A DNA stretch of 46,808 nt from Phycisphaerae bacterium (GTDB lineage Bacteria > Planctomycetota > Phycisphaerae > Phycisphaerales > Phycisphaeraceae), in the NCBI GenBank assembly GCA_030432595.1, contig JAUIGU010000032.1:1-46808 (forward strand), read 5' to 3'. A program made the position numbers and the translations under genes. The notes beneath the pieces are model-generated. The model worked only from the letters and a program-made list of their open reading frames with translations, ran no database searches and was not told the origin of the DNA. Below, in pieces: positions 4,222 through 25,557 of this stretch. How positions within the stretch are numbered: the first letter of the stretch is position 1; each line of letters begins with the position of its first letter.

Positions 4222-5109
4222 ATGCCCGAAAGTCAGGAATCAATCTACTCCACACGCACTGAACCCGGCGACGCCCGGACTGTGCCCTGGCGGCCGCTCG
4301 TGATCTCCGCGCCGTTCGGCAACTACATCCAGCCGGCCGGGTGCACGGCGACGCTGGGCACGTTTACCGCGATGCCACGCGGCGGGCGCGTCCCGCAGAT
4401 CCTCAAAACCGTCCGCTACTACCCGCGGATCAAGGCGTGGGTCAACAAGATCGGCCTGCGCAACCCGGGCATCGCGTGGCTGCAACAGAAAGTCGAGCAG
4501 GGCAAGATCGATGTGTCTGACAAACTTGTCAGCGTCCACGGCTTCGACGAAACGCAGTGGATCGAACTGATCGACAAAGCCGCGGCGCTCGAGCCGCTGG
4601 GCATTGAACTGAACATGAGCTGCCCGAACGTCGGCGAGGTGAGTTGGCCCGTGTCGTTGTTTGCTCGGGCGGCCGAGCTGCAAAGCGAAGCGCAGGGACA
4701 ACTTCCGGGGGCGGGCCCCGCATTGACATGCGGGGCTTCGATGGCGGTCATCGTCAAGCTGCCGCCGGTGAACTTCCGGGCGATGGCGGACGCGGCGGTG
4801 GCGGCGGGGTTGACGCGGTTTCATTGCTGCAACACGCTGCCCGTGCCGGCGGGGGGCGTGTCCGGCGGGCCGCTCAAGCCGGTGGCGATGCAGTGCATCG
4901 CACAACTGCGGGCCGCGCCGTACGGCGACGCGATCCACATCCTCGCCGGCGGTGGCATCCGCACGCCCGACGATATTGATGACTACCGCGGCGTCGGGGC
5001 GGACACGTTCGCGGTGGGCACGAAGGTGATGAACCCGTGGTACCTAATGAGTCACGGCGGGTTGGCACCTTTGCGGGAACGGGCCACCGGAGTATCATTA
5101 AGGGGCTGA
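4222..5109 (+). CDS. Dihydroorotate dehydrogenase-like FMN protein with altered C-terminus
   Basis: TIM-barrel flavoprotein of the class 1 dihydroorotate dehydrogenase family (dihydroorotate to orotate in pyrimidine synthesis, or a relative). Visible motifs: SAPFGNY near the N-terminus, ELNMSCPNVG, IVKLPPVNF, HCCNTLPVPAGG, and the phosphate-binding ILAGGGIRTPDDIDDY with ADTFAVGTK. ATG at 4222 with upstream GGAA is preferred over TTG at 4186. Two oddities. First, residues about 161-175 (QLPGAGPALTCGAS) look like an in-frame insertion and coincide with a perfect 9-bp hairpin at 4715-4736. Second, the last 188 bp before the end of the conserved region recur at 6363-6550, and this copy ends in APLRERATGVSLRG whereas the downstream copy ends in AGLIERAGKD. 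The tail here therefore appears to be replaced. Confidence 0.85.
   Translation: MPESQESIYSTRTEPGDARTVPWRPLVISAPFGNYIQPAGCTATLGTFTAMPRGGRVPQILKTVRYYPRIKAWVNKIGLRNPGIAWLQQKVEQGKIDVSDKLVSVHGFDETQWIELIDKAAALEPLGIELNMSCPNVGEVSWPVSLFARAAELQSEAQGQLPGAGPALTCGASMAVIVKLPPVNFRAMADAAVAAGLTRFHCCNTLPVPAGGVSGGPLKPVAMQCIAQLRAAPYGDAIHILAGGGIRTPDDIDDYRGVGADTFAVGTKVMNPWYLMSHGGLAPLRERATGVSLRG
4715..4736. repeat. In-gene hairpin within the dihydroorotate dehydrogenase-like CDS
   Basis: GCCCCGCAT-TGAC-ATGCGGGGC, a perfect 9-bp stem with a 4-nt loop. It encodes part of an apparent extra segment (PALTCGAS) absent from what I expect between the SCPNVG and VKLPP motifs. The hairpin at 14739-14766 is built from a similar GCCCCGCA...TGCGGGGC stem. 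Confidence 0.7.
4879..5066 (+). repeat. 188-bp direct repeat, left copy (in intact gene)
   Basis: Matches 6363-6550 base for base except at 4953 (t versus c) and 5061 (g versus t). It encodes the C-terminal third of the barrel. After 5066 the copies diverge but still share GAACGGGC at the same offset, so similarity fades rather than stopping abruptly. Confidence 0.95.
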
Positions 5110-5126
5110 TTATTGATTCCTGGCTC

Positions 5127-5134
5127 GGGGAGAA
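5127..5134 (+). promoter_or_regulatory. Ribosome binding site of the inserted FG-GAP gene
   Basis: GGGGAGAA lies 6 bases before the TTG at 5141 and decides that start. Confidence 0.7.
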
Positions 5135-5140
5135 ACGCAC

Positions 5141-6463
5141 TTGTTGAGAATCCGCTTGCCAAAATCGTATGTTTTCTTGCTTCTCCTTTGCCTGATTCTT
5201 CTGCCCAACTTTGTAGATGCGTCACCAACCTTTCGACACCAATTGATCTCAGATGACCCAGGAATAGTATGGCTTCAACGTTCAGTGAGCTTGGATGGTG
5301 GACTGGTTCTTGCGGGTGATAAGGATTATGGACAAACTGAGCGGTCAAGAATTGGCGCGGCTGCTCTATTCGACGCCAATACGGGCGAAGAATTGCGCGT
5401 TTTTCATGCAAGCGACCCCCAAGTTTTTTCGGAGTTTGGTTTTTCCGTCGATTTGTCGAATGGGATTGCTGCGATAGGAGCATACGATGCCATCACGGCT
5501 GGCGCGGGCACAGACACCACTGATGCTGGCGCTGTTTACATTTTTGATGCGTTGACTGGCAACCAATTGCAGAGAGTGATCGCTGGTGATCCGCAAAGGC
5601 ACGGTAACTTTGGATGGGCGGTGGATATTGAAGGTGACCGTCTGCTAGTCGGCGCGCCTTTCCACGATGACGATGACGGTGCCGCCTATGTTTTTGACGC
5701 TCTGACAGGCACTCAACTACACAAGCTCAGTTTTTCAGGCGCGTCAACTTCGGCTCGCGAATGGTTTGGTATTTCGCTCGATGTTTACGGCGATTATGCT
5801 GTTATTGGGGCACCCGGAGGATTCACGTCCTCTAAAGGTCGGGCGTTTCTGTTTAATCTTCGTACCGGTGAACAACTCTTTGAACTCACGCCCCCTGATC
5901 TTGAAGTTGGGGACCGGTTCGGAACTCGTGTCGCGATTTCCGATAGTTTGGTGGCGGTGAGTGCGGTCGAGACATACGTAGATGAAGGCTCGGTGTACCT
6001 GTTTGATTTTGAGACCGGAGAACTAATTCGTCGATTAGGGCCGAACGCTGGTCAGGCGCAAGGATCTTTCGGTATCGGATTGGACATCGACGGCAATATC
6101 GTGGCAGTTGGCGCAAATGCTCACGATGAAGTTCAAGGTGCTGGAATGGTTCATGTATTTGACAGCCTCACCGGCCTTGAGTTCGCCAGTTTCGATGCGC
6201 CATCTCCCATCGAACGCGTTTCGTTTGGTTGGGATATTGATCTTGAAGGCGACGTCATGGCCGTGGCGACTAGTCAACGCGGCAACGCTTACGTTTTTGA
6301 CGGTATTGTTCCCGAGCCTGGAGTTGGTGGGGCGATGGGAGTACTTTTCCTTACGATGCTCTCCGGTGGCGATGCAGTGCATCGCACAACTGCGGGCCGC
6401 GCCGTACGGCGACGCGATCCACATCCTCGCCGGCGGCGGCATCCGCACGCCCGACGATATTGA
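5141..6463 (+). CDS. Exported FG-GAP/beta-propeller protein with PEP-CTERM motif, 3' end fused to a repeat
   Basis: A 440-residue secreted protein. TTG start with good ribosome binding site, then a signal peptide (VFLLLLCLILLPNFVDA). Residues about 30-390 carry six to seven FG-GAP-like repeats of the type FGWAVDIEGDRLLVGAP...YVFDALTG, predicting an integrin-alpha-like beta-propeller. Near residue 394 comes VPEPG and the beginning of a hydrophobic helix (GVGGAMGVLFLTML), a PEP-CTERM exosortase sorting tail. At 6363 the gene runs into the right copy of the 188-bp repeat and is read there in a different frame for about 34 codons (DAVHRTTAGRAVRRRDPHP, then more arginines). The native C-terminus is thus lost, though the read-through tail happens to be arginine-rich like real PEP-CTERM tails. 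Base composition is clearly more AT-rich than its neighbours, suggesting transfer. Confidence 0.85.
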   Translation: MLRIRLPKSYVFLLLLCLILLPNFVDASPTFRHQLISDDPGIVWLQRSVSLDGGLVLAGDKDYGQTERSRIGAAALFDANTGEELRVFHASDPQVFSEFGFSVDLSNGIAAIGAYDAITAGAGTDTTDAGAVYIFDALTGNQLQRVIAGDPQRHGNFGWAVDIEGDRLLVGAPFHDDDDGAAYVFDALTGTQLHKLSFSGASTSAREWFGISLDVYGDYAVIGAPGGFTSSKGRAFLFNLRTGEQLFELTPPDLEVGDRFGTRVAISDSLVAVSAVETYVDEGSVYLFDFETGELIRRLGPNAGQAQGSFGIGLDIDGNIVAVGANAHDEVQGAGMVHVFDSLTGLEFASFDAPSPIERVSFGWDIDLEGDVMAVATSQRGNAYVFDGIVPEPGVGGAMGVLFLTMLSGGDAVHRTTAGRAVRRRDPHPRRRRHPHARRY

Positions 6464-6550
6464 TGACTACCGCGGCGTCGGGGCGGACACGTTCGCGGTG
6501 GGCACGAAGGTGATGAACCCGTGGTACCTAATGAGTCACGGCGGTTTGGC
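6363..6550 (+). repeat. 188-bp direct repeat, right copy
   Basis: Partner of 4879-5066; the offset between copies is 1484 bp. It forms the boundary between the AT-rich inserted gene and the GC-rich chromosome. Confidence 0.95.
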
Positions 6551-6581
6551 GGGGTTGATCGAACGGGCGGGAAAAGACTGA
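6363..6581 (+). pseudogene. 3' remnant of the dihydroorotate dehydrogenase-like gene
   Basis: Second copy of the C-terminal coding region, starting abruptly at 6363 with no start codon of its own. In frame it reads PVAMQCIAQLRAAPYGD, then AGGGIRTPDDIDDY, and ends SHGGLAGLIERAGKD followed by a stop. This terminus looks more like a normal family C-terminus than that of the intact gene, so it is probably the original gene end displaced by the insertion. Confidence 0.9.
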
Positions 6582-6600
6582 AACGAGTTTTCTTTCGCTT

Positions 6601-6662
6601 AGCCGCACCGCAACGCGGTGCGCGCACACCGCGGAGGGCGCGCACCGCGTTGCGGTGCGGCT
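6601..6662. repeat. REPIN-like double hairpin, family 2
   Basis: Perfect 25-bp inverted arms (6601-6625 and 6638-6662) around a 12-nt spacer. Each arm is itself a hairpin: CGCACCGC-AAC-GCGGTGCG on the left and CGCACCGC-GTT-GCGGTGCG on the right, again with complementary loops. It follows the 3' remnant and may end that transcript. Confidence 0.9.
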
Positions 6663-6741
6663 AACCCGAAAACGCGAACGTTTGAAAAGTGATACAGGTT
6701 TGGCGGTTGGTGTCGGGCGGTTCGCGTGGCATGATGACGCG

Positions 6742-7239
6742 GTGAGCGACGCCGACCCGGAAATCCTGCTCGACCCCGCGCCCGCGCACGGGCGCTACAC
6801 CCTTCGGCCCGTGACGGACGCGGACGAGGCGTGGATGTGGCCCGCGGGGTGCGAGATGCTGCGGCCGTACGTCGAGCCGATCTACGGCTGGCGTGAGAAA
6901 GATGCCCGCTACTTCTTCGACCGCGAGTGGAAGGCCCGGCAGGCCGTGCAGGTCGCCGGCGAGAACGCCGGCTGGCTCGAACTCGCCCGCCGCGACGACT
7001 TTTTGTTTCTCCACGAGATCGGGTTGCTGCCGGCGTTTCAGAAGCAGGGGCTGGGCACGCAGATCCTCGAAGACATCATCGCCCACGCCGAGGCGAACGG
7101 CTGGAGCGTCGAGCTGCAGGTGCTGGTCACCAACCCCGCCCGACGTTTGTACGAACGCTGCGGGTTCCGCCAGACGCACGCGAAGATGTCGAGGCCGCCG
7201 GGCGGGTGGAAGTGCGATCCCCCTACGCTTCAAGCATGA
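6742..7239 (+). CDS. GNAT family N-acetyltransferase
   Basis: About 165 residues with the acetyl-CoA binding motif A of GNAT enzymes (IGLLPAFQKQGLGTQILED, containing Q-K-Q-G-L-G) and the following motif B helix and strand (VLVTNPARRLYERCGF). The substrate cannot be told. The frame is open from 6655, but that GTG lies inside the inverted repeat, so GTG at 6742 (SDADPEILLDPAP) is preferred. The stop overlaps the ATG of the next gene (ATGA at 7236-7239), so the two are probably translationally coupled. Confidence 0.85.
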   Translation: MSDADPEILLDPAPAHGRYTLRPVTDADEAWMWPAGCEMLRPYVEPIYGWREKDARYFFDREWKARQAVQVAGENAGWLELARRDDFLFLHEIGLLPAFQKQGLGTQILEDIIAHAEANGWSVELQVLVTNPARRLYERCGFRQTHAKMSRPPGGWKCDPPTLQA

Positions 7240-7611: not shown

Positions 7612-7678
7612 ACCGGTCGCTCACGCTCCCGGCTCTGCGGGGCGATGTATGAAAGAGCCGGGAGCGTGAGCGACCGGT
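7612..7678. repeat. 25-bp perfect inverted repeat
   Basis: Arms at 7612-7636 (ACCGGTCGCTCACGCTCCCG...) and 7654-7678 are exact reverse complements, with a 17-nt spacer. Each arm can also pair partly with itself. It sits between convergent genes and directly abuts family 1 copy 2. Confidence 0.9.
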
Positions 7679-7686
7679 CGAGTGCC

Positions 7687-7777
7687 GGGTGCCACGGTCG
7701 CTTGCGACCGTGCGATTGGCAGAAACCTCGCGCGACATCACACACCGAAGACACGGTTGCAAGCAACCGTGGCACCC
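7687..7777. repeat. REPIN-like double hairpin, family 1 copy 2
   Basis: Same organisation as 2231-2325: GGGTGCCACGGTCGCTTGCG... then ...ACACGGTTGCAAGCAACCG... ending GGCACCC. Lies between the small membrane protein and fliM, which converge. Confidence 0.88.
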
Positions 7778-7837
7778 CCGGTTCGCTGCGATTTGTTTCT
7801 TCTTCCTGAACCCCAAACCCCATCCCCCAGACCCCAC

Positions 7838-20208: not shown

Positions 20209-21141
20209 TCAAGCCGCCGCCCGCTGGCATCGCGATAACAACCCAAGTCCCGCGAGCGCCAGCACCGCCGCACTCCCCGGCTCGGGCACCCCCGAAAGTT
20301 CCGCGAACCCGCCGTAATTTGGCGCGCCCGTGCTCCCCCAGTTCTGAAGCACGCGGTCCAGCTCGGTCTGCTCGACCTGCCCGACGTTGTCGTTGTCGTT
20401 CACCCACCAGGCCGGGAGCCCGGTCACGCCCGTGTCATCGCCCCAGTTCTGGAGCACCAGGTCCAGATCTCCCTGTTCGACCTGCCCGCTGCCGTTGTAG
20501 TCGCCGGTCACTCCGCCTGCGCCGATGAACGTCACCACCGCGTCCAGCGAGGTCGTCCCGATGGCCCCGGCGCTCAGGCCCGTGTTGCCGAACAGTGTGT
20601 AAAGGCCTGGCTCGACCACCACCGACTGGCCGAAGGGTCCCGTCGCGATGCCTGCCACATCGATCAGCGGGATGTCGTCGCCGGGTACACGTTCCAACAA
20701 CGCCACCGAGAAACCCTGGGGAACCGACCCCGACGTCACCGCCACGCCCGACCCCGCGATGGTGATGGTCGTCGGCTGGACTAGCTCGAAGTCCATATCA
20801 AACGTCGTCGTCGAGATCGAGCTGCCTTGGTTGGCCGTCGCCGTCAGGTTCAGGTCCACCTGCGTCGCGGCGACCACCGCGGTGTGCGTGGCCTCGACGC
20901 GGTCGCCCTCGTTGTTGGTGACCACCTCGGTGTTGTCGTAGGCGTGCAGCCCCGCCCGCGGATCGGTCACCCGCACGAATCCCGAGCCCGGCACGACCTG
21001 GACAAAACGATGCTGCGTGCTGGCGTTCACGATCACCGCCCCGGCCGGACGCTCCGCCAAACCCAACCCAAGCCCCATGAGCAACGCCGCACCCCGCACT
21101 CCAACCCGGCCCCCGTTCCACCAATCCGCAAGTCGTCTCAT
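20209..21141 (-). CDS. PEP-CTERM protein with dockerin-like repeats (paralog 1)
   Basis: 310-residue exported protein. Signal peptide at residues 10-35 (ALLMGLGLGLAERPAGA), then a beta-rich region of unknown fold (about 36-195). Around residue 208 begin two EF-hand-like dockerin segments: DYNGSGQVEQGDLDLVL and, about 35 residues later, DNVGQVEQTELDRVL, each followed by QNWG. The C-terminus has VPEPGSAAVLALAGLGLL and a short basic tail, a PEP-CTERM exosortase sorting signal. ATG at 21141 has GGAGAAAG upstream. Its last 110 residues are nearly identical to the next gene's. Probably a cell-surface or matrix protein. Confidence 0.82.
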   Translation of the reverse strand: MRRLADWWNGGRVGVRGAALLMGLGLGLAERPAGAVIVNASTQHRFVQVVPGSGFVRVTDPRAGLHAYDNTEVVTNNEGDRVEATHTAVVAATQVDLNLTATANQGSSISTTTFDMDFELVQPTTITIAGSGVAVTSGSVPQGFSVALLERVPGDDIPLIDVAGIATGPFGQSVVVEPGLYTLFGNTGLSAGAIGTTSLDAVVTFIGAGGVTGDYNGSGQVEQGDLDLVLQNWGDDTGVTGLPAWWVNDNDNVGQVEQTELDRVLQNWGSTGAPNYGGFAELSGVPEPGSAAVLALAGLGLLSRCQRAAA

Positions 21142-21198
21142 CGCAACTTTCTCCTGGGCCGCATCGCGGCACGAAGCATACCCGGCCACTTCGTTTCA

Positions 21199-21218
21199 CC
21201 AAGCGATTTCCCAGCTTC
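21199..21218 (-). promoter_or_regulatory. Conserved 20-bp motif upstream of PEP-CTERM paralog 1
   Basis: On the minus strand GAAGCTGGGAAATCGCTTGG, 58 bases before the start codon. It matches 18 of 20 bases of the motif at 22219-22238, which is 64 bases before the paralog. The TGG-N8-TTGG spacing loosely recalls a sigma-54 promoter, but the -12 GC is missing. Confidence 0.5.
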
Positions 21219-22155
21219 ACACACGCCACACCACGCGCCGCCGACCGAGCAAGCCCAACGCCGCCAGCACCGCGACGCCCGCCGGCTCGGGGACCCCCGG
21301 AAGTTCCGTGAACCCGCCGAAGTTTGGCGCACCCGTGCTGCCCCAGTTCTGAAGCACGCGGTCCAGCTCGGTCTGCTCGACCTGCCCGACGTTGTCCTTG
21401 TCGTTAATCCACCCGGCCGGGAGCCCGGTCACGCCGGTATCCACGCCCCAATTCTGCAGCACCAGGTCCAAGTCTCCCTGCTCCACCTGCCCGCTGCCGT
21501 TGTAGTCGCCGGTTACACCGGTCAGCGCGGTGAAGATCGCGTTGAGGTCGAACGACGCGGTGCCCTCGCGGACGATGTAGGTGTTGCCGTTGCGCTGGGT
21601 GTTCTGGTTCGCGTTGAGTACGAACGAGTACTGCCCCGGCTCGAGCTGGAACGCCCCCCCCAGGGCGCTGCTCTGGTCGTTGTTGAGCGAGACGCTGTCG
21701 AGGCTGCCGCCCGGGCCGTTGAGACCGAACGCGGCAAAGGCGAACTGCCCCGCCCCGACCGCGAGGTTGCCGGTGTAGGACACCTGGGCCGGCTGAGCGA
21801 GGGTGAACCGGAGGGTGTTCCGCGTGTTGGCCGAGGCCGTCTCGCCGTTGTTGGTGCTGAAGGAGAGCTGGCCGTCCACCAGGATCTGCGTCGGGTTGAT
21901 CGTCGTGTCGACCGACACCTCGGCCTCGCTGACGCCGATCTGCCCGACGGCGGTCAACTCCGTGACGCCGAACCCGAACGCGGTGCTGTCGAGCAGGTCG
22001 CGGTCCTGGATCGGCGGCGTGCCCGCGTTCGGCGACGGCATGATCGCGCTCGCCTCGTGGCGATACTCCAGCCGCGGCGAGACCAGCACGGCCGACGCGG
22101 GGGCAGCCGAGGTGGTCGCGAGAATCGTCAAACAGATGAAGCGTGACATGGACAT
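21217..22155 (-). CDS. PEP-CTERM protein with dockerin-like repeats (paralog 2)
   Basis: 312-residue exported protein in tandem with paralog 1. Signal peptide (FICLTILATTSAAPASA), an unrelated beta-rich N-terminal region, then the same pair of dockerin-like segments (DYNGSGQVEQGDLDLVL; DNVGQVEQTELDRVL) and the tail VPEPAGVAVLAALGLLGRRR, a PEP-CTERM signal with its arginine cluster. ATG at 22155 has GGAGAAAG upstream; ATG at 22149 is an alternative. Near-identical 3' halves with different 5' halves suggest domain shuffling or gene conversion. Confidence 0.82.
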   Translation of the reverse strand: MSMSRFICLTILATTSAAPASAVLVSPRLEYRHEASAIMPSPNAGTPPIQDRDLLDSTAFGFGVTELTAVGQIGVSEAEVSVDTTINPTQILVDGQLSFSTNNGETASANTRNTLRFTLAQPAQVSYTGNLAVGAGQFAFAAFGLNGPGGSLDSVSLNNDQSSALGGAFQLEPGQYSFVLNANQNTQRNGNTYIVREGTASFDLNAIFTALTGVTGDYNGSGQVEQGDLDLVLQNWGVDTGVTGLPAGWINDKDNVGQVEQTELDRVLQNWGSTGAPNFGGFTELPGVPEPAGVAVLAALGLLGRRRVVWRV

Positions 22156-22218
22156 CGACACGGGGCTTTCTCCGGCTGCGGCAAAGACACGCCAACCTAA
22201 CGGAGACGGGCCGGCAAA

Positions 22219-22238
22219 CCAAACGTTTTCCCAGCTTC
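22219..22238 (-). promoter_or_regulatory. Conserved 20-bp motif upstream of PEP-CTERM paralog 2
   Basis: Minus-strand GAAGCTGGGAAAACGTTTGG, partner of 21199-21218. The surrounding 250-bp gap to the GH16 gene otherwise shows nothing I can support. Confidence 0.5.
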
Positions 22239-22406
22239 CCACGCGGGCACCCGTGTCCGCGCCGATTCCTGTGCACGACGCCAAGCTCGCCGCGCAGGCG
22301 TTGTTCGGAGCGTTGGATCGCCGGCCAAGCGGATTGGGGGCGACACGCCTGGCGGCGCGAATGCTGGCGGGTTCGGTCGACGCGCAGTGAACTTGATGAT
22401 TGCGCG

Positions 22407-23537: not shown

Positions 23538-24068
23538 TCATCGCCCTCGTCGTCGTGACCACCAATCCAGTAAGCGATCAATCAGACCTGGTGGCGAGAC
23601 CTGCCGAAGCCCGAGGCCTGGGTACTCTGAGTTTAGACGACGCACATCATCCGCACATTCGACCCCGATAAAACGTTGAAGTTCACGATCATTTTTCGGA
23701 GGGCGTCCGTGTTTCTCAAGAAAAAGCTCGGCCCACTGAATATCGCCACGAACATCTTCGTCCCACCAAGCGACATCGTACCAATCGGGCTTGATCCGTA
23801 TCTCCTGGTGGTAGATGTCTGCTTCGAAGTGCTGCGCGATCTCGATCCACAGGTCCGTGTTTCTTGAGTCCGGATACTCATGGAAGACTTCGCCTTCATG
23901 AAACATGAATCGACTTCCGCTAGTTTTATGTAGGGTGATCGCTTGGAGCCCATCTACAGGTTCCAATGCAACCAGATCGATGTGTGATTTGACAAAGAGA
24001 TTCCACGCATCGAGCTCTATCGGCGGTTGGCCGTCTGGTCTCTTGATTCGCACAGCATTCTCCAGCAC
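23538..24068 (-). CDS. Hypothetical protein in a lower-GC patch
   Basis: 176 residues, GTG start, acidic, tryptophan- and histidine-containing, without signal peptide or membrane segment. It shows no motif I know. Composition is more AT-rich than the flanking genes. It lies just beyond the trmL 3' remnant, so it may belong to the chromosome downstream of the original trmL or to the inserted material. Confidence 0.55.
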   Translation of the reverse strand: MLENAVRIKRPDGQPPIELDAWNLFVKSHIDLVALEPVDGLQAITLHKTSGSRFMFHEGEVFHEYPDSRNTDLWIEIAQHFEADIYHQEIRIKPDWYDVAWWDEDVRGDIQWAELFLEKHGRPPKNDRELQRFIGVECADDVRRLNSEYPGLGLRQVSPPGLIDRLLDWWSRRRGR

Positions 24069-24098: not shown

Positions 24099-24211
24099 TC
24101 ACAAGTCGTCGAGATATTGGGCGGTGGCCGTCGCCAGCACGATCGCGACGGTGTTGGCGACGTTGAGGCTGCGGAAGTTGGGAGAGCCGTCGGCGGGGCC
24201 GGGCATGGGGA
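24099..24211 (-). pseudogene. 3' remnant of trmL
   Basis: On the minus strand this reads PMPGPADGSPNFRSLNV, then ANTVAIVLATATAQYLDDL and a stop: the C-terminal SPOUT knot region of TrmL without the rest of the gene. Bases 24139-24211 match 25055-25127 of the intact trmL at 70 of 73 positions; toward the stop codon similarity falls away. It begins 25 bases after the glycosyltransferase stop. Confidence 0.88.
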
Positions 24212-24236
24212 GGCAATGCGAACTTTCCCGTGTTGC

Positions 24237-25013
24237 TCACCCGCTGGGCTCGTAGTATGCCTTTGCCAAAACCGGATCCCGGACCGTGCTTCGGTGGAAC
24301 AAGGTCAGACGGAACGCGAGCTTGAGGTGCCACCACAGGCCCTTGTCGGCTCCCTTTCGGCCGGAGGTGTGAAACGGGTGCTGGTGGAGGATACGGAAGG
24401 TCTGGTTGCGGGTCTTCGCCAGCGCCTTGAGGCGTTGGACGAAGTCGAGTTCTTCAAAGACGTAGTGCTCGTCGGAGAACCCGCCGATCGTGTCAAACGC
24501 GTTCCGTCGGCAGAGGATGAACGCGCCCGGGCACCACTTGAAGGTTCGCATGCTGCGGTTCTTGCTGTGCCAAACAAGCTTGTACCAGCGTGGCCCGTCG
24601 ATGATCTTGATCGTGCTGCCGCAGCCGATGCATGTATGGTCCGAGAGAAGCGAGGCGACGTCCGCGATCAGTTCGGGCGGGGGCCAGGTGTCCGCGTCGA
24701 TGAAGAGCAGCCACTCCCCGGACGTGGCGGCCGCGCCAGTGTTGCGTGCCTGGGCGACGCGTCGGGTCGATTCATGTACGACGCGGCAACCGGTTTGTGC
24801 GGCGACTCGTGCGGTATCGTCCTCCGAGCCGTTGTCGCAGACCGTGATGTCGTAACCCGCAGCGAGTTCGGGGCAGGCCGCGAATGCCTGGCGGATTCTA
24901 TGGATGGTTTGCGCAATCTGAGCCGATTCGTTGAGTGCAGGGATGACGACCGAGACCGTGGGGGCATCGGTTACCGTGGAGGCCTCAGTTGCCTGGGCTT
25001 TCGTCCGTGTCAT
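24237..25013 (-). CDS. Family 2 glycosyltransferase
   Basis: 258-residue inverting GT-A glycosyltransferase. Family features: VSVVIPALNES at the start of the nucleotide-binding fold, VCDNGSEDDT, the metal-binding DADTW (D-x-D), CPGAFILCRRNAFDTIGGF and the EELDF motif that provides the catalytic acid region. No membrane segment, so cytoplasmic or peripheral. It starts 4 bases after the trmL stop, so probably co-transcribed, and is followed within 25 bases by a second copy of the trmL 3' end. This position suggests acquisition by recombination in the trmL 3' end. Confidence 0.9.
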   Translation of the reverse strand: MTRTKAQATEASTVTDAPTVSVVIPALNESAQIAQTIHRIRQAFAACPELAAGYDITVCDNGSEDDTARVAAQTGCRVVHESTRRVAQARNTGAAATSGEWLLFIDADTWPPPELIADVASLLSDHTCIGCGSTIKIIDGPRWYKLVWHSKNRSMRTFKWCPGAFILCRRNAFDTIGGFSDEHYVFEELDFVQRLKALAKTRNQTFRILHQHPFHTSGRKGADKGLWWHLKLAFRLTLFHRSTVRDPVLAKAYYEPSG

Positions 25014-25017
25014 GGCA

Positions 25018-25557
25018 TCAACCGTGGTGGGTTCGTGCGACCGCGGTGGCGAGGACGATCGCGACGGTGTTGGCGACGTTGAGGCTGCGGATGTTGGGGG
25101 CGCCGTCGGCGGGGCCGGGCATGGGGATGTTCAGACGTGATCGCGGGAAGCGGTCGTGCCAAGTCTCGGGCAGCCCCGTGTTTTCGTTGCCGAAGATGAA
25201 GACGTCTCCGTCGCGGTAGTCGGCGCGGTCGAAGCGGGTGTCGCCGAACTTGGTGATGAGCCAGACCTGAGGGCGGGAACGTTGGTGGGCGTGATCCGAG
25301 GCTTCGTCGCTTCGCTCCTCAGCCACGGCTTGGGCGCAGTGTTGGTCGAGCCATGCCAGGAACGCGTTGTCGTTTTCGTGTTGGGTGAGTTGGACGGAGG
25401 GCCAGTAGTCCAGGCCGGCGCGTTTGACGGCGTGGTCGGTGATCTCGAACTTCATCGGGTGGATGAGGTGCAGGTGCGCGCCGAAGCCGACGGTGGTGCG
25501 GGCGATGTTGCCGGTGTTCTGCGGGATGGCGGGGTGGTAGAGGGCGACGTGGAACAT
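25018..25557 (-). CDS. trmL: tRNA (cytidine/uridine-34-2'-O)-methyltransferase TrmL
   Basis: SPOUT-class methyltransferase that 2'-O-methylates the wobble base of tRNA-Leu. Typical segments: N-terminal VALYHPAIPQNTGNIART, HPMKFEITDHAVKRAGLDYW, FIFGNENTGLPE, and the knot IPMPGPADGAPNIRSLNV with ANTVAIVLA. 179 residues; slightly long because of an extra segment AQAVAEERSDEASDHAHQRS in the middle. The C-terminus (TAVARTHHG) differs from that of the duplicated remnant downstream (TATAQYLDDL), so one of the two ends is not original. Confidence 0.92.
   Translation of the reverse strand: MFHVALYHPAIPQNTGNIARTTVGFGAHLHLIHPMKFEITDHAVKRAGLDYWPSVQLTQHENDNAFLAWLDQHCAQAVAEERSDEASDHAHQRSRPQVWLITKFGDTRFDRADYRDGDVFIFGNENTGLPETWHDRFPRSRLNIPMPGPADGAPNIRSLNVANTVAIVLATAVARTHHG
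25055..25127 (-). repeat. 73-bp direct repeat within trmL (partner at 24139-24211)
   Basis: Three mismatches in 73 bases, offset 916 bp. It brackets the glycosyltransferase gene exactly as the 188-bp repeat brackets the FG-GAP gene. Confidence 0.88.

Follow-up and report, generated by a model that had tools for sequence, protein, structure and literature searches.

The window analysed in this work, 46,808 nucleotides in length, is the entire contig C52 of a draft Phycisphaerae genome of 4.39 Mb (73 contigs, 99.1% complete). An intact dihydroorotate dehydrogenase (DHODH)-like gene of 295 amino acids occupies positions 4222..5109 of the plus strand; its product matches the Pfam family DHO_dh (PF01180, E 1.5e-17) and is 78% identical to the orthologue in G001, the one genome on which the comparison within the genus is based. 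On the same strand it is followed by a gene with a TTG start (5141..6463), identified by its translation, its GC3 and a match to FG-GAP_2 (PF14312, E 1.6e-41). With 140.7 bits against a family cut-off of 23 and five matching stretches, the product classifies as an FG-GAP repeat protein. The GC3 of 5141-6362 is 0.46, compared with 0.83-0.89 in the neighbouring PRT, DHODH, GNAT and FliM genes, and the composition of this DNA is thus foreign to its surroundings. A sequence-only reading of the contig had proposed a low-GC FG-GAP gene lying between two copies of a DHODH 3' end, and these values bear it out. It had also reported neither integrase nor transposase, in agreement with our searches: the 32 ORFs given to Pfam (6+9+9+8, out of 206 mechanical ORFs in the window) yielded no match to such families, and none of the seven tyrosine integrase matches (PF00589) in the genome lies on the window contig.

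The two copies form a direct repeat, in which 4879-5066 equals 6363-6550 at 186 of 188 bases, a figure already given in that reading and reproduced by our recount. Copy 1 (4879..5066, plus strand) lies within the target gene. Copy 2 and the tail behind it make up a start-less DHODH-like 3' end (6363..6581, plus strand) that is native by position. The mismatches (4953/6437 and 5061/6545) both fall on third codon positions and are silent in the DHODH-like frame; the longest exact stretch common to both copies is 107 bp, and ungapped extension to 206 nt retains 96% identity. Blastn within the window gives E = 4e-91, so the repeat is not due to chance. Past the repeat the copies end in different tails, as had been stated, namely APLRERATGVSLRG in copy 1 (tail 1) and AGLIERAGKD in copy 2 (tail 2), which are yet alike at some positions.

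The second copy had been described as lying behind the FG-GAP gene. It does adjoin that gene, but the FG-GAP frame runs into it: after 5141-6362, which is the gene's own DNA, the frame continues through 101 bases of copy 2, stop codon included, out of frame with DHODH, and the gene has no stop of its own ahead of the joint 6362/6363. This joint, placed from the sequence and the repeat boundary, connects unrelated sequences. The FG-GAP gene is cut at its own 3' end and has lost its end, which makes 6362/6363, where the cut gene meets copy 2, the illegitimate joint. The protein is therefore an example of a C-terminus now made from the DNA of another gene, out of frame: a VPEP motif and a short hydrophobic run are followed, from 6363 on, by the other-frame repeat, which gives an arginine-rich tail. 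By eye, this end resembles the three-part PEP-CTERM signal. The PEP-CTERM label given earlier depends on such reading of the letters (VPEP, hydrophobic run) and did not hold in the model search: the Pfam PEP-CTERM model gave no match to the protein at E<=10 (HMMER filters drop most matches above ~0.1), and the protein is absent from the genome's PEP-CTERM matches among the 150 scored of 212 candidates. The genome itself has two exosortase matches and many PEP-CTERM matches.

Two further features of the target gene are recorded here. An in-frame insertion of ~20 residues at 4684-4749, which G001 and many relatives lack, includes a palindrome also present at other places in the genome. Near the gene ends, a short inverted match (4225-4245 and 5110-5130, CAGGAATCAAT and its complement) was seen by eye; as a candidate pair of element ends it was dropped.

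The same locus in G001 is an empty site. Its DHODH-like gene is present in a single copy ending HGGLRPLLNRAGAA, and a GNAT gene starts 7 bp past the stop codon. In the window the GNAT gene (6742..7239, plus strand, within the ORF 6655-7239; Acetyltransf_1, E 1.1e-12) comes after copy 2. We fetched 24 relatives' loci, two of which hold only the 5' part of the DHODH-like gene, leaving 22 scored for the 3' neighbour. A GNAT gene stands behind the DHODH-like gene in 5 of these 22 loci and an FG-GAP gene in none, so the search for the same cargo behind the same target in relatives, suggested by the sequence-only reading, came back empty; two short FG-GAP matches in these loci lie inside the DHODH-like gene and stem from the overprinted tail. 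A second DHODH 3' fragment was found in 1 of the 22. Judged by the single copy in G001, the position of GNAT after copy 2 and these counts, the 1484-bp addition is derived and DHODH-GNAT is the older order. The arrangement is not common to all relatives, since G001 has one copy and no insert, and the recovery of its GNAT gene behind copy 2 of the window shows this to be an insertion that left the target whole and pushed its native 3' end aside. The gap between copy 2 and GNAT also holds a 66-bp REP-like palindrome (6599..6664) with arms 94% complementary, for which there is no room in G001 with its GNAT gene 7 bp from the stop.

Relative to G001 the two copies are nearly equivalent, with 151/188 and 153/188 identical bases (~80% each), whereas they are 99% identical to each other; from this difference the addition is recent, i.e. 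young relative to the genus. At both mismatch sites the G001 base is that of copy 2. Over 5067-5109, compared without gaps, the copies differ at 26 bases, of which G001 agrees with copy 1 at 10, with copy 2 at 10 and with neither at 6, and among relatives endings of the PLRER/PIRER type, like copy 1, occur in G019 and G010 and a GLIE ending, like copy 2, in G021. With this even split and both types of ending in relatives, the earlier claim of a more family-like end in the displaced copy is unsupported, and the ending AGLIERAGKD, which that reading proposed to look for in relatives without the insert, is not that of G001. The assignment of copy 2 as the native copy accordingly rests mainly on gene order, as does that of the last codons of the target (tail 1, 5067-5109) to the donor, from which they probably came, given that the tails side equally with G001.

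We conclude that the locus carries a real and recent gene insertion with duplication of the target 3' end, with no integrase found, and that this kind of event is already known. Its most likely route, to which we assign a probability of about 55%, is a circularised donor fragment integrated by one crossover. A donor fragment of ~1.48 kb would have entered the cell, cut on the left within a homologous DHODH-like gene and on the right within the last FG-GAP codons; its ends would have been joined at 6362/6363, and the resulting circle would have integrated by a single homologous crossover within the shared 188 bp. The target would thereby gain the donor 3' end with tail 1 and stay intact, the FG-GAP gene would come along, and the native 3' end with tail 2 would be pushed, together with GNAT, 1484 bp downstream as a start-less fragment. 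In this reconstruction the donor, the route of uptake and the circular intermediate are inferred. RecA could loop the gene out again via the direct repeats, and the insert should for this reason be polymorphic.

In a single step, this route accounts for the intact target and its divergent tail, for the cut in the FG-GAP gene and for the repeat. The lack of an own FG-GAP stop before the joint is as expected of a randomly cut fragment, and the agreement of copy 2 with G001 at both repeat mismatches also speaks for this route. Against it stands the abrupt change at 5067, where 99% identity gives way to clearly divergent tails; a conspecific donor does not explain this break, unless that donor had previously acquired a different 3' end or homogenisation has acted on the copies. 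The equal siding of the tails with G001, the basis in one congeneric genome and the outcome of the donor search count against it as well. The earlier idea that incoming DNA brought the 3' end of a homologous gene together with the gene downstream of it, and entered by recombination, remains the best fit, with G001 lacking the insert, but its argument from a family-like displaced end is not supported. A close experimental likeness is found in E. coli conjugation products (PMC3240628), with partial duplication in 56 of 60 clones, of 109-950 bp in the 14 sequenced, which the authors put down to one crossover with a molecule that had been partly degraded and then re-circularised. As here, a homologous end is partially duplicated around foreign DNA; unlike here, the DNA was a laboratory plasmid under selection, whereas our case concerns a natural chromosome for which no donor was found.

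The donor was sought in 61 genomes, 400 genomes of the order, genome contigs, viral contigs, plasmids and phages, and was found in none of these sets. FG-GAP proteins are common in the order, some match at E<=0.001 being present in 33 of the 61 genomes (own genome included); the top-scoring foreign match reaches 42% identity over residues 67-341. Among the best candidates, at most four per genome, of the 400 genomes of the order, the own genome alone matched at E<=1e-45. A pattern search of genome contigs matched 88 stretches and one of viral contigs four, none of them confirmed, and every one of the 4 plasmid and 16 phage records retrieved is below 60% identity.

The same architecture recurs elsewhere in the window, on the minus strand (24117-25557 as a whole). 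A SpoU-family methylase gene (25018..25557; SpoU_methylase, E 4.3e-26) contains one repeat copy at 25043-25127; a glycosyltransferase family 2 gene, inserted (24237..25013; Glycos_transf_2, E 1.2e-24), starts 4 nt past its stop, and 25 nt beyond that gene comes a second SpoU 3' end (24127..24211) running into its own tail TAQYLDDL. The two SpoU 3' ends are 92% identical over 85 bp, and the second is 96.5% identical to the SpoU 3' end of G001. A search of relatives' loci did not recover this glycosyltransferase gene next to SpoU. From SpoU to enolase the distance is within ~1.1 kb in G001, with one other ORF between, and ~4.9 kb in the window. At the sites where the SpoU copies differ, copy 1 agrees with G001 at three sites, then copy 2 at four, and the pattern is mixed beyond. 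Such a switch is what one crossover predicts; the three left sites could be drift in a dead fragment. SpoU also has an in-frame extra stretch of ~17 residues relative to G001 (~25260-25331) with a hairpin, of which no further copy was seen in the sampled sequence, and the DNA immediately past the second SpoU 3' end (~23540-24060) is low in GC (52%) and contains an open frame.

Downstream of the DHODH-like gene in G064 (L064:128-1945) stand two GNAT genes, and between them lies a C-terminal piece of DHODH that shares 64% identity with its parent across 42 residues. The second GNAT is 66-68% identical to the GNATs of G001 and G019, the first 44-46%. This locus could be a third, older case, or alternatively a tandem duplication of the 3' end plus GNAT followed by divergence.

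The main rival to a circle integrated by one crossover is a one-sided homologous event (homology-facilitated illegitimate recombination or template switching), which we consider possible though clearly less probable. Pairing at the target 3' end would involve either linear donor DNA or the end of a broken chromosome; 1.3 kb of donor DNA would be joined or copied, and the strand would then rejoin the sister chromosome 188 bp upstream of its exit point, using short homology or none. Copy 2 would then be wholly native, and 99% identity would call for no conspecific donor. The genome encodes ComEC and DprA homologues, yet these were also matched in 10 and 11 of 14 control genomes and so prove little. 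Transformation of Streptococcus pneumoniae can produce duplications by bridging sister chromosomes (PMC3784515); they resemble our case in resulting from incoming DNA and recombination with no transposase, and differ in their size of ~100-900 kb and their location between existing repeats. According to PMC3240628, however, one-sided events usually yield deletion, not duplication, and the left end of SpoU copy 2 differs from G001 at the three sites mentioned above, which also counts against this rival.

The remaining explanations carry little weight. Origin from an element with its own integrase (a prophage or an island) that used the 3' end as attachment site and has since been reduced to one gene would account for an architecture shared with e14 at icd, but seems unlikely: the contig holds none of the genome's integrase matches, the insert is a single gene truncated at the repeat, the copies are recent, and a full element occupies the site in 0 of 22 relatives' loci. 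An old tandem duplication of the 3' end and its neighbour, with one neighbour replaced later, could be read from the order in G064; the 99% identity of the window copies and the single copy in G001 make it very improbable here. We give just as little credence to an assembly artefact in a draft metagenome-type assembly, which 73 contigs might invite, as the copies differ at two sites and in their tails, the joint 6362/6363 is unique sequence that repeat collapse would not create, and G064 shows a similar arrangement in another genome.

Known systems share parts of this architecture. For e14 of E. coli K-12, PMC11148124 and PMC4759930 describe a native 165-bp icd 3' end (icdC) displaced with 12 differences between the copies; there as here the target is intact via a supplied 3' end and the native end moves to the far side, whereas e14, as a prophage, brings an integrase and uses a short crossover core and our insert is one cut gene with no integrase found. 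Insertion with long target duplication was described in Helicobacter pylori (Nobusato et al. 2000, as cited in PMC1643837, PMC4978471 and PMC3031569). According to these citing papers, a long direct target repeat flanks the insert (188 bp with 186 identical here) with no transposase implied, and a related genome has a single uninterrupted target, as G001 does. Those insertions, in contrast, mainly carry restriction-modification genes, as a usual association and not by definition; such cargo is absent here, being an FG-GAP gene at DHODH and a glycosyltransferase gene at SpoU. Copy 1 of our repeat also differs in its divergent tail. Among the papers listed by literature searches none dealt with such an arrangement in planctomycetes, which does not prove that none exists.

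The locus is a natural record of single-gene uptake by homologous recombination at the 3' end of a neighbour, with neither mobile-element machinery nor breakage of the neighbour gene. The cases at SpoU and in G064 hint at repetition but do not establish it, and two cases in one window may be a coincidence. We regard as unlikely the broader proposal that the 3' ends of conserved genes in this lineage repeatedly admit single genes, each supplied with a replacement target end and no recombinase of its own and each leaving an excisable direct repeat, so that recombination-only capture would have occurred twice within the 47-kb window (DHODH and SpoU) and once more, at DHODH, in a second genus of the family. 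If true, it would provide a searchable signature (an intact gene, one foreign gene, and a start-less second 3' end with another tail) marking an acquisition route that is easily overlooked.

The frequency of such events was surveyed in the window and in 36 stretches taken from six contigs, in all 766,596 bases with overlaps; the stretches amount to ~677 kb of unique sequence, or 15% of the genome, and the sample is not random because the contigs were chosen as already named in the genome overview. Direct repeats with a length of at least 55 bp, a spacing above 300 bp and up to 6 kb, and an identity of 85% or more were confined to the window, where there are three: DHODH, SpoU and the C-terminal stretch shared by a tandem gene pair. 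At the protein level 1883 mechanical ORFs were scanned, and the downstream same-strand matches numbered 13 at the C-terminus and 8 at the N-terminus; above 80% identity the 13 C-terminal ones comprise the two window cases only, and of the two matches looked at more closely, in L109 and L117, that in L117 is a dockerin-like end in common. Three weaker DNA repeats were inspected, in L117, L108 and L135. No further recent case was found in this non-random ~15% of the genome, so the event is uncommon in the part examined.

The tandem pair consists of two minus-strand genes (20209-22284) with 259 nt of C-terminal sequence in common (89%) and sub-threshold PEP-CTERM matches. REP-like hairpins were also considered as mediators of the insertion and set aside, those seen lying away from the repeat boundaries. 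Paired REP-like inverted repeats were observed at 2231-2324 and 7612-7780, and one REP-like family was counted 34 times in ~767 kb (up to three mismatches, both strands, overlapping stretches counted).
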